This document shows positions 11,053 through 16,064 of a stretch of DNA of 33,820 nucleotides, piece by piece (positions within the stretch are counted from its first letter, which is position 1; the number at the start of each line of letters is the position of its first letter). Position numbers and translations under genes: made by a program. A model generated the notes under the pieces. It saw only the letters and a list, made by a program, of their open reading frames with translations. It ran no database searches and had not been told where the DNA came from. The stretch is from Flavobacteriales bacterium (GTDB lineage Bacteria; Bacteroidota; Bacteroidia; Flavobacteriales_E; Vicingaceae): the NCBI GenBank assembly GCA_002706365.1, contig PALM01000002.1:1-33820 (forward strand), written 5' to 3'.

Positions 11053-11122
11053 GTTTGGTCGTTTTGTATGTGTAATTTTGCTCTTTCAACCCAAAGGGCT
11101 GCGCTTTGTTCAATTTACATAA

Positions 11123-11157: not shown

Positions 11158-12219
11158 TTGACCGAAGTGAAAAAACAATCTATTGTTGATAATCTGACTC
11201 AGCTAGGTCGATTCTTTGAATTGAGCCTAGATAATGAAGCTAAAAGCGAAGTTGAAGCACTGAATCCACTGCTGAAAAAGAGTCGTGAACTCATTGATAC
11301 TGCCTATCAAAAGAATAGCTGGTTCACTCCGGAAGCTGTGCAGATATCCTATTCAGCATGGGCTAAAAGTTTGAGCAAAGATGCTGTTGAAAATTGGTTG
11401 GGCAATTACGAACTTAAAGAGAACAGCCATCCAAAGAAAGTTGGAGTGATCATGGCGGGAAATATCCCCATGGTAGGCATGCATGATGCCCTTTCTGTAC
11501 TTGTAAGTGGAAATATTCTACACGCCAAACTATCCTCTAAGGATGAAGACTTAATGGCTTTGGTTCTAGATGCTTTATCGGCAATTGATAATGAATGGGC
11601 AAATCGAATCCATAGAGTGGATCAAATGAAAGAAGCCGATGTGTTTATTGCTACGGGTAACGACAATTCGGCTCGTTATTTCGAATACTACTTCAGAGAT
11701 AAACCCAAGATCATTCGCAAGAACAGAACTGCTTTGGCTATTCTTAGTAATGATGCCCCTGAAGCTGAGATCGAAAAGCTGGCCGATGATGTATTCACTT
11801 ATTTCGGATTGGGATGCAGAAATGTGACCAAGGTATACATTCCTCAAGATTTTGATCTAGATAGGCTCTTCAAGGCTTTCTATAAATACAAAGATGTAGT
11901 TCAACATAATCAATACGCCAATAATTACGATTACAATAAAGCGGTGTATTTAATGACTCAAGTTGAGCTTGTCGAGAATGGATTCTTATTGCTGAAGGAA
12001 GATGAAGGTATTCACTCTCCCCTTGGTGTGCTCTTCTACGAGCGATATAATGAGTTGAAGGATGTGGAGAAGAAACTGAAGTCGCTTGAGGATGAGATCC
12101 AAGTGGTGGTCTCCGACTTTGAGCATCCTGAATTTGAGAATCTTGGAAAGGCCCAGCAGCCGGAGCTTTGGGATTATGCTGATGGGGTTGATACGCTTCG
12201 ATTTTTACTAGAAGCTTAG
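11158..12219 (+). CDS. LuxC-type acyl-CoA reductase family protein
   Basis: From the proposed start the protein has 353 residues of the LuxC/acyl-CoA reductase family (NAD(P)H-dependent reduction of acyl-thioesters to aldehydes). The family blocks HPKKVGVIMAGNIPMVG, VFIATGNDNSARYF and FGLGCRNVTKVYIP are present, with Cys220 as the likely acylated nucleophile. The open frame extends back to an ATG at 11068, but residues added there are unlike the family; I prefer TTG at 11158, preceded by AGGAG at 11143-11147, one of the few SD-like sequences here. GTG at 11167 is an alternative. The substrate is not known. Its last 15 residues are duplicated as an orphan at 12502-12549. The stop lies in a heptamer array. 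Confidence 0.85.
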   Translation: MTEVKKQSIVDNLTQLGRFFELSLDNEAKSEVEALNPLLKKSRELIDTAYQKNSWFTPEAVQISYSAWAKSLSKDAVENWLGNYELKENSHPKKVGVIMAGNIPMVGMHDALSVLVSGNILHAKLSSKDEDLMALVLDALSAIDNEWANRIHRVDQMKEADVFIATGNDNSARYFEYYFRDKPKIIRKNRTALAILSNDAPEAEIEKLADDVFTYFGLGCRNVTKVYIPQDFDLDRLFKAFYKYKDVVQHNQYANNYDYNKAVYLMTQVELVENGFLLLKEDEGIHSPLGVLFYERYNELKDVEKKLKSLEDEIQVVVSDFEHPEFENLGKAQQPELWDYADGVDTLRFLLEA

Positions 12220-12286
12220 GTTTAAGAGTTTAGATATTAGTCCTTCGGCTGCGCTCAGGAACCAAGGTTAGCGTTTATAGTTTAGA
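12215..12286 (+). repeat. Two period-7 arrays, TTTAGAT words, around a REP-like hairpin
   Basis: Units CTTAGGT, TTAAGAG, TTTAGAT and ATTAGTC (12215-12242) begin in the luxC stop codon. Three more units (GGTTAGC, GTTTATA, GTTTAGA) lie at 12266-12286. Between them is the common intergenic word CCTTCGGCTGCGCTCAGGA, which has clearly interrupted an originally longer array. Confidence 0.65.
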
Positions 12287-12348
12287 CAGAGGGTCATAAA
12301 ATTAAAATGACATCCGCTTTAACCACAAGCCCGACTCTGTCGGGCCAC

Positions 12349-12496
12349 AAAGGCGCTTCGCTTTGCACAGTGGACACGGCGGCATTACATTCCTAAATTC
12401 CGGCTATCGACTATTTTATCCTCCGTAGCCTTGGCGTAGGAGGACGGCCATCGGCCTCAAAATCTAGGTTCTAGACTCTAGGTTCTAGGTTCTCAA
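12349..12496. repeat. 148-bp direct repeat, copy A
   Basis: Copy B is at 12776-12923, equal in length, and differs at about five positions (for example G/A at the third base of the CGGCTATC word). Each copy contains the GGCGCTTCGCTTTGCACAG word, a 26-nt hairpin (12419-12444) and a CTAG heptamer array (12464-12498). The 704-bp spacer 12220-12923 is almost wholly made of such elements; I see no intact gene. Confidence 0.9.
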
Positions 12497-12501
12497 ATAG
12501 G

Positions 12502-12549
12502 GACTATGCAGATGGGGTTGATACTTTAGATTTTCTTTTGAAAGCCTGA
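12502..12549 (+). pseudogene. Orphan 3' end of a second LuxC-type gene
   Basis: Sixteen codons reading DYADGVDTLDFLLKA and stop TGA match the C-terminus of the intact gene (DYADGVDTLRFLLEA) at 13 of 15 residues. At DNA level about 16 of 48 bases differ, mostly at synonymous positions, so it is an old diverged copy that was under selection, not a recent duplication. The central GATGGGGTTGATAC is identical in both. Nothing of the gene remains 5' of this: direct-repeat copy A abuts it. Confidence 0.8.
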
Positions 12550-12592
12550 TTCGAACTTCAATCTATATTAGTCAACTCATGTAGTTTTCCTT

Positions 12593-12674
12593 GAATTACG
12601 AATTGTCAATTACGAATTACGAATGGCAGCAGAAATCGAAATCAGCTCCATTGCCTTATATTATCATTCACTTT
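12593..12674 (+). repeat. GAATTAC heptamer array plus 49-bp conserved tail, copy 1
   Basis: Five 7-nt units (GAATTAC, GAATTGT, CAATTAC and relatives) at 12593-12627 run into a 49-bp tail starting GCAGCAGAA. The tail recurs with equal length at 15796-15844 after the array at 15770-15797, so array and tail move or are inherited as one unit. Confidence 0.75.
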
Positions 12675-12683
12675 CTACTACAA

Positions 12684-12742
12684 AAGCCCCGATGGTTCCC
12701 GAGTGATTCCGCTCCGCGGAATTGTATCGAGGAACGGGGCTT
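12684..12742. repeat. Compound palindrome, TCTCGATAC family
   Basis: Nested stems: AAGCCCC (12684-12690) with GGGGCTT (12736-12742), GTTCC (12695-12699) with GGAAC (12731-12735), and ATTCCGC (12706-12712) with GCGGAAT (12716-12722). The inner half matches the palindrome family at 1081-1122 and 32262-32312. It could form a cruciform or a strong RNA stem. Confidence 0.7.
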
Positions 12743-12775
12743 CACCCCACCTAGGCTAAAGCTTCAGTGGGCAAG

Positions 12776-12923
12776 AAAGGCGCTTCGCTTTGCACAGTGG
12801 ACACGGAGGCATTACTTTCCTAAATTCCGACTATCGACTATTTTATCCTCCGTAGCCTTGGCGTAGGAGGACGGCCATCGACCTCAAAATCTAGGTTCTA
12901 GACTCTAGGCTCTAGGTTCTCAA
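12776..12923. repeat. 148-bp direct repeat, copy B, ending at a stop codon
   Basis: About 97 percent identical to copy A (12349-12496). Its terminal CTAG heptamer array (12891-12925, five units) runs into the TAA stop (complement of 12924-12926) of the beta-helix lipoprotein gene. Confidence 0.9.
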
Positions 12924-14396
12924 TTAAGGAGTGAATTCATAAGCACCTAGATCCGGCATACCATCTGCTGTTCTAGAGTTACCTTCAATATCCAAAGGCA
13001 CCACATTAGCTAGGTTTACATCTCCTAAATCGCGGGCGAGGGAGTTTTCGGAGAGAGAGAAATCCAGATTCGATGGGTCTTCGAAGATCATATTCGCCGG
13101 ATTGCGAATGATATTCTTGAATTGGGTAGTGTCTGATGTGTTTTGTGTGGTTTTTAGGATCAGAGAGCGAAAATCGAGGTTTAGGGTTCCGTTATTGATG
13201 ATCTCGGTCTCAAATTCATTTTCTAAATCTCCGTAGATGATCGAATTGTAGATTCCCACATTCGGTTCGCCAATTACTTGAGTGTTATTGGCAGTGACAA
13301 AGGAGTTCTGTATTAGGACGGAGGGTGTTTCTCTGGCTGCCTGAGCAAAATAGTTGGCAAAAGTGCAGTGGTAGAAATCGTAATTGCCAGCTGAACGAAG
13401 CACCATATTGTATTGTCCGCTATTGCTGATCACAAGGTTCTCAGCTCTAACATTGTAAATTGATGAGATCATACCAAAGCCTGAACAGTTCTCAATAATG
13501 GTATTGGTGATCAATAGGCTAGTTGGATCGTAAGGAGGATCATCAAATGGCAAGACTTCTGGCTGTAGCCCGATGAAGCCATTGCGAATTCGCGCATGAT
13601 GTATCTCGTTCTGTCCGCCTTCATTGATCCAGATCCTATCCCATTGTCCTGGACGATTCACATAATTGGCATCCAATCGATCTCCTTGAAAAGTCACCGG
13701 CTCTGATGCTGTGCCCATCACTTTTAAGGTTCCACCTCTGTAAACCCACATTCCTCCATCTTGATGGAAATAGATCCTCGCTCCCGCCTCTATCGTGAGC
13801 ACATCCAGGGAATCAATTGCGATGAATCCATAGATCACATAAGGCTTGTCTTTTGTCCAGGTCACATTTACCGGTGCTACGGTATCGCTACACGGACCGG
13901 TCAAGCAGGTAAAGTCGGGCAAATTTTGATTGAAGGAAGTTGGGGTAAAATATATGGCGTTTTGGCCCCATGCCACTAGATCCACATCCTGACGGTTGCC
14001 ATTGGTGACGAATTCGATAAAATCAGTGATCACAAATGGATTATTCACATTGGTAGGATCGATCGTAGCCTCTATGAAGATAAACATGCTGTCTTCTCCG
14101 GCGATCTCCACATTTGAATGAGTTGGGCCGGGACTTCCATCCACATTGATCCTAAAAGCGGAGGCTTGTCCGCCATTCAATCGAATACTGCTGATGCGAA
14201 TTCTTTCTTTATAGGGATTATAGACGCGAATATTTGCAGTAACTGTCCCCACAGAAGTGAAGACAGTATCAAAGCTCACTGAATCTGTTGAGAAACGCAG
14301 CTGCGCTGAGGGACTGTCGAAGATCTCCTCATCGGGGCGACAAGCAAACAGCAGCATAATGCCGCTAAATAATATGATCAAGCTTGATAAACGCAT
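12924..14396 (-). CDS. Lipoprotein with a right-handed parallel beta-helix domain
   Basis: The 490-residue product has a lipoprotein signal (hydrophobic stretch from residue 4 and lipobox LLFAC, Cys about residue 19), so it is likely anchored in the outer membrane. Residues about 25-170 look like Ig-like beta domains (LRFSTDSVSFDTVFTSVGT, IRVYNPYKERI). From about 200, repeated short blocks such as IEAGARIYFHQDGG, VRAENLVISNSGQYNMVLRS and YDFYHCTFANY suggest a parallel beta-helix of the pectate-lyase-like type. The C-terminal DIEGNSRTADGMPDLGAYEF is a common ending of Bacteroidota beta-helix proteins. No catalytic residues can be named. It lies 43 bp downstream of the thioredoxin-like gene. 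Confidence 0.85.
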   Translation of the reverse strand: MRLSSLIILFSGIMLLFACRPDEEIFDSPSAQLRFSTDSVSFDTVFTSVGTVTANIRVYNPYKERIRISSIRLNGGQASAFRINVDGSPGPTHSNVEIAGEDSMFIFIEATIDPTNVNNPFVITDFIEFVTNGNRQDVDLVAWGQNAIYFTPTSFNQNLPDFTCLTGPCSDTVAPVNVTWTKDKPYVIYGFIAIDSLDVLTIEAGARIYFHQDGGMWVYRGGTLKVMGTASEPVTFQGDRLDANYVNRPGQWDRIWINEGGQNEIHHARIRNGFIGLQPEVLPFDDPPYDPTSLLITNTIIENCSGFGMISSIYNVRAENLVISNSGQYNMVLRSAGNYDFYHCTFANYFAQAARETPSVLIQNSFVTANNTQVIGEPNVGIYNSIIYGDLENEFETEIINNGTLNLDFRSLILKTTQNTSDTTQFKNIIRNPANMIFEDPSNLDFSLSENSLARDLGDVNLANVVPLDIEGNSRTADGMPDLGAYEFTP

Positions 14397-15988: not shown

Positions 15989-16064
15989 ACATTTACACAT
16001 TGCTACATCTGCAAATTGATACATTAACTTTTCAGATTTCTGATTTCAGATTTCAGATTTATTC
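15989..16064 (-). repeat. Period-8 array followed by a period-7 TTTCAGA array, at the moxR stop
   Basis: Five exact 8-nt units (ACATTTAC, ACATTGCT and others) at 15989-16028, then four exact 7-nt units (TTTCAGA, TTTCTGA) at 16030-16057 and a degenerate unit. The moxR stop (complement of 16067-16069) follows at once. In the moxR mRNA sense the first words are TCTGAAA, purine-rich. Confidence 0.8.

Follow-up and report, generated by a model that had tools for sequence, protein, structure and literature searches.

Replacement 3' ends are carried by integrative elements at icd or tRNA genes, and REP sequences are mobilised by RAYT (Y1) transposases. Homology-facilitated illegitimate recombination (HFIR) is known from Streptococcus pneumoniae, Acinetobacter baylyi and Pseudomonas stutzeri; its products usually combine a deletion of about 1 kb with an insertion of about 1 kb and show 3-10 bp of microhomology (PMC3240628). 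HFIR has also been proposed for T6SS, Rhs and CDI loci, where insertion supplies a complete new gene end and leaves the previous 3' part as a downstream orphan, and displaced gene ends are thus already described at effector and immunity loci (PMC5361080). Intergenic heptamer repeats with the unit TAACTGA occur in Beggiatoaceae, Cyanobacteria and five Bacteroidetes (PMC4679880).

Here we describe a luxC locus with parallels to these systems. As in HFIR, its structure would result if a linear incoming fragment were attached through homology on one side and illegitimately on the other. However, the locus has a short duplication of a gene end: some 50 bp of luxC occurs twice, with the convergent neighbour intact and no coupled deletion. 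An insertion with a 50-bp duplication, and not with a deletion, is a counterpoint to import. As for the distinction between foreign and resident DNA that is made for HFIR, the locus holds two alleles with coding-constrained divergence, neither of which is assignable as foreign. By analogy, we suggest that the locus works like HFIR, but it is not an established member of that class. As at the T6SS, Rhs and CDI loci, the old 3' end would stay downstream of the newly complete gene. Unlike the whole orphan genes of those effector and immunity loci, the displaced ends described here are scraps of 14-36 codons of ordinary single-copy genes.

The window, i.e., the whole stretch of 33,820 bp that was analysed, contains the following features at the locus.

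11158-12219, plus strand: intact LuxC-type acyl-CoA reductase gene (Pfam PF05893; orthologue in 58 of 60 relatives); the ORF opens at 11068 and TTG at 11158 is the likely start
12220-12341, no strand: spacer X, dispersed repeats (GTCCTTCGGCTGCGCTCAGGA family and TTTAACCACAAGCCCG hairpin family) with copies genome-wide; hairpin at 12329-12345, folding z -3.9
12349-12496, no strand: copy A of a 148-bp composite repeat, three families
12346-12404, within copy A: part 1 of the unit, CACAAAGGCGC..GGACACGG
12398-12455, within copy A: part 2, TATCCTCCGTAGCCTTGGCGTAGGAGGAC hairpin within GGCTATC repeats
12459-12496, within copy A: part 3, period-7 array of TCTAGGT heptamers
12500-12549, plus strand: displaced 3' end of a probable second luxC allele, read in frame up to a TGA stop of its own
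12550-12768, no strand: spacer Y, a short unique stretch followed by dispersed families
12591-12628, within spacer Y: ATTACGA heptamer array
12620-12675, within spacer Y: GCAGCAG..CATTCACTTT family
12677-12744, within spacer Y: long hairpin family, hairpin z -4.4
12776-12923, no strand: copy B of the 148-bp composite repeat; it runs up to the convergent gene's stop codon
12924-14396, minus strand: convergent neighbour, 490 aa, C-terminus GAYEFTP, no Pfam family matched; abuts luxC in relatives

Positions 12220-12923 thus form an expanded interval, filled with repeats, between two convergent genes that lie directly against each other in relatives. The distance between the two stops is -11 to +11 bp in 12 relatives of the family, 101 bp in the genus mate G001 and 704 bp in the window. 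A search of 12000-13100 for known RNA families found none. The luxC gene is single-copy, with few exceptions, in the 60 relatives searched. The earlier note had raised the case of a remnant common to all relatives at this position; none of those examined at the locus (12 genomes and G001) carries it. G001 is the one genus mate in the comparison set, and the best nearer relative sought among named genomes was too distant at 50% identity.

A direct duplication of 148 bp with about five differences around an orphan luxC end had been reported from the letters alone. Both copies are indeed 148 bp long and differ by exactly five substitutions (12380, 12389, 12403, 12454 and 12483) with no gaps, and an extended alignment of the direct repeat covers 162 bp at 94% (BLASTN E 5e-69). 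Its own genome (G000, 3.02 Mb, 47 contigs) has the full unit nowhere else, while the three component parts of the unit are each dispersed separately over many intergenic regions; a genome-wide search showed the remainder of 12220-12923 to be mostly dispersed repeats as well. Among the 40 relatives searched, only G001 gave matches to the unit. The dispersal of the three parts and the restriction of matches to G001 identify the unit as intergenic repeat DNA and not as a flank made by integration. The repeat was considered as an att-like flank, and this was rejected when its parts proved to be dispersed intergenic repeats. Since the unit is composed of three dispersed families, the duplication and the luxC tail, both of them real, are separate things that touch.

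The 285 kb of non-ORF DNA of G000 contain 350 tandem arrays with a period of exactly 7, made of 98 different units; the next commonest periods are 14 (73 arrays) and 10 (59). The density of period-7 arrays is 123 per 100 kb in G000 against 18-33 in three other genera, and the arrays are concentrated in convergent intergenic regions and sparse in divergent ones. Examples lie at 12459-12496, 12591-12628 and 16040-16060 of the window and at L036:540-620. They share with the TAACTGA repeats a 7-bp period and an intergenic position, but there one unit dominates, as opposed to the 98 units here. This sequence-independent period has no obvious explanation. The locus can also be compared with REP sequences: intergenic hairpin families with several to tens of copies occur in a genome with a Y1 transposase, and of the three Y1_Tnp matches (PF01797) in G000 one stands among GGAC..GTCC hairpins resembling the hairpin of the MerR insert described below. 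However, other families make up the mosaic of the luxC insert, and by eye the GGAC..GTCC hairpins at the RAYT flank appear to differ from the repeats of 12220-12923. A RAYT-like Y1 transposase gene amid GGAC..GTCC hairpins and repeats of about 40 bp (CCGCGCGAGCGTT) is located at L256:4858-5431.

The second luxC 3' end behind copy A is 48 bp long and encodes DYADGVDTLDFLLKA followed by a stop (12499-12549 of the window translates as RDYADGVDTLDFLLKA and a stop). The intact luxC ends with DYADGVDTLRFLLEA and a stop at 12219. The description of the former as the C-terminus of a second LuxC-type protein with many synonymous differences is borne out: 13 of 15 residues and the stop agree, while 16 of the 48 bases differ, nine at third positions. 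In three leucine codons two of the three bases differ, yet leucine is still encoded. The next best peptide match to the luxC tail in the whole window reaches just 7 of 15 residues, so the remnant is not a product of chance. The 14-bp core that had been noted as shared by the two ends is a true identity (GATGGGGTTGATAC), but it lies inside the conserved codons DGVDT and is conserved coding sequence.

The divergence was compared with a simulation of neutral decay, in which a spare local copy decays freely while the gene keeps its protein. With the remnant treated as such an unconstrained local duplicate, the observed pattern appears in 0.1% of runs (P 0.001), and in about 3e-5 or less under a stricter setting. 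As the divergence is mainly synonymous and rare under neutral decay, it arose mainly while both sequences were functional luxC ends. Most likely, the remnant derives from a diverged functional luxC allele. The divergence between tail and remnant is about that between the tails of G000 and G001, and judged by sequence the remnant appears about as different from the present luxC as are alleles of different species of the genus.

A scan for gene ends with a further copy no more than 2 kb away, covering 1.94 of the 3.02 Mb of G000 (1539 ORFs), yielded five convincing displaced 3' ends, that of luxC and those listed below.

L093:14519-14650: displaced tail of an exosortase gene
L107:2539-2619: displaced tail of an MFS transporter gene
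L105:11811-11852: displaced tail of a MerR regulator gene
L269:1683-1748: displaced tail of the DNA ligase gene ligA, the product being named from its sequence

No displaced 5' ends or opposite-strand cases scored beyond chance among the 1539 ORFs, with paralogues and tRNA-related matches set aside. Matches at L266, L119, L113, L137, L151, L247, L092, L099 and L130 were set aside by eye as tandem paralogues or stretch-end effects, and that at L276 as a tRNA-type or non-coding artefact. No displaced tails were found in 306 ORFs of three other genera and in 27 ORFs of G001, a control (333 ORFs in total) too small to prove specificity. A nucleotide scan recovered luxC, exosortase and ligA, missed MFS and MerR, and added no unconstrained displaced tail. 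At the MFS locus, a gene for a 23S rRNA-intervening-sequence-type protein (PF05635; L107:2034-2390, reverse strand) lies between the intact MFS gene and the displaced tail, and related copies of it are found elsewhere in the genome. At the ligA locus, a repeat element of about 150 bp with inverted ends (CCCGCAGAT...ATCAGCGGG; L269:1530-1680) stands between the intact gene and the displaced tail, and it too has copies elsewhere in the genome. In G001, a diverged 25-residue internal fragment of grpE is located at L170:17540-17635, between other genes and 1.8 kb from the intact grpE.

The five genes have orthologues throughout the family, and exosortase, MFS, MerR and ligA are each mostly single-copy in relatives. 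All five displaced tails are found at convergent gene pairs, which account for 181 of 1172 intergenic regions (five of five by chance, 0.15^5 = 9e-5). The luxC, MFS, MerR and ligA pairs clearly overlap or lie a few bases apart in several relatives; the exosortase pair has just a weakly matched neighbour in G001, and its remnant extends as far as the convergent neighbour's stop, the place at which one would expect the native end. The remnants measure 42-115 bp (14-36 codons) against genes of 340-1500 bp or more, and are shorter than evenly spread breakpoints would give (Fisher P 0.005). Neutral decay gives P 0.005-0.009 at three further loci, while ligA by itself does not reject it (P 0.33). 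Over the five loci the combined Fisher P is 1.7e-6, a value somewhat favourable to the claim because the search for remnants relied on protein similarity, which favours those under coding constraint. The spare copies thus diverge under coding constraint at luxC and over the five loci, unlike the products of local tandem duplication. No recombination breakpoint or mosaic is visible along the five genes in comparison with G001 and the relatives.

Hence, we suggest that the luxC locus arose by import of an allele, one side of which was joined by homologous recombination and the other illegitimately, close to the end of the gene. We infer the event itself from the present arrangement and give it a probability of roughly 0.6. 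In this process DNA from a relative, with a complete luxC and a repeat array behind it, would enter the cell. Homologous recombination within or upstream of luxC would join one end of the incoming DNA; the other end would be joined illegitimately at a point some 50 bp short of where the resident luxC ends, and the resident tail would be left as a non-coding scar. Repeat arrays and hairpins would form the edge of the inserted DNA. In the mirror case an imported tail would be joined next to the resident array, giving an identical structure that is indistinguishable here. The earlier note had proposed allele replacement or integration at a gene 3' end. Replacement is supported by the mostly synonymous divergence, by the single luxC without remnant in relatives and by the same anatomy at four other single-copy genes; integration finds no such support. 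The limitation of the scars to convergent pairs is most simply explained by selection, since neither promoters nor operons are cut there. A donor or recipient genome was sought and none was found, and the luxC join gives no clear case of microhomology.

Several other histories could produce a second gene end. Repeats adjoin both tails and follow in similar order in both halves (luxC end, TTTAACCACA-type family, hairpin, 148-bp unit), which favours a local event, slippage or unequal crossover, that duplicated the luxC 3' end along with intergenic repeats and was followed by decay of the spare copy. We consider this improbable in view of the retained leucines, the neutral simulation (P 0.001 or less) and the two 148-bp units, which are 97% alike while the tails are 67% alike, so that repeat units and tails have no common date of duplication. 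Coding-constrained divergence would also be expected if one gene of an ancient tandem luxC pair had been deleted save for its last 50 bp. However, nearly all of the relatives with a luxC match have one copy, and the same loss would have to be repeated independently for exosortase, MFS, MerR and ligA, which leaves this history with a low probability. The genome is a draft and the tails resemble alleles of two species, as an assembly chimera of two related species in a metagenome would have it. Such a chimera is hardly more credible, as the joins between repeats and remnants lack a long shared overlap at which an assembler might pass from one species to the other, the luxC locus contains no run of N, the estimated contamination is 0.13% and one anatomy is common to five joins.

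Site-specific integration of an element bringing a replacement 3' end to luxC would account for the identical 14-bp core and the restored gene end, but the insert consists of 330 bp of repeats, different genes are hit, the five loci have no common core and their junction sequences are unrelated. Inspection of the window ORFs revealed no integrase or recombinase, in agreement with the earlier note. This explanation is mostly refuted and, in our estimate, highly improbable. The hairpin and heptamer elements, and not the allele import, may be the driving force, inserting into the final 100 bp of genes that belong to tight convergent pairs; the survivors would then be insertions whose upstream gene tail was restored by recombination with a relative. 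Repeat DNA touches the start of the remnant at luxC and ligA and resumes close behind its stop at MerR, ligA and MFS, the MerR insert is filled by a hairpin, and array density is 2.97 per kb in convergent against 0.87 in divergent regions. Nevertheless, arrays abound throughout the genome (33% of convergent regions have them), which makes their presence weak evidence, and no target-site duplication is seen. We rate this alternative as unlikely, though above the others.

With allele import as the preferred reading, the fact that one genome carries such scars at five ordinary single-copy genes, in each case at a convergent pair, suggests that untidy import is visible and countable in housekeeping DNA. 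To count such events, any genome can be screened for a simple computed signature: a second 3' end under coding constraint, no more than 1-2 kb downstream. The scars would also show how compact convergent pairs come by spacer DNA. A further proposal, which we hold to be unlikely as it stands, is that the intergenic heptamer and hairpin arrays of the genus are recombination edges that repeatedly bring 3' ends of relatives' genes into tight convergent pairs. If so, the pairs would be prised apart with the old 3' ends left as scars, and the displaced tails would record a continuing, array-guided exchange of alleles.
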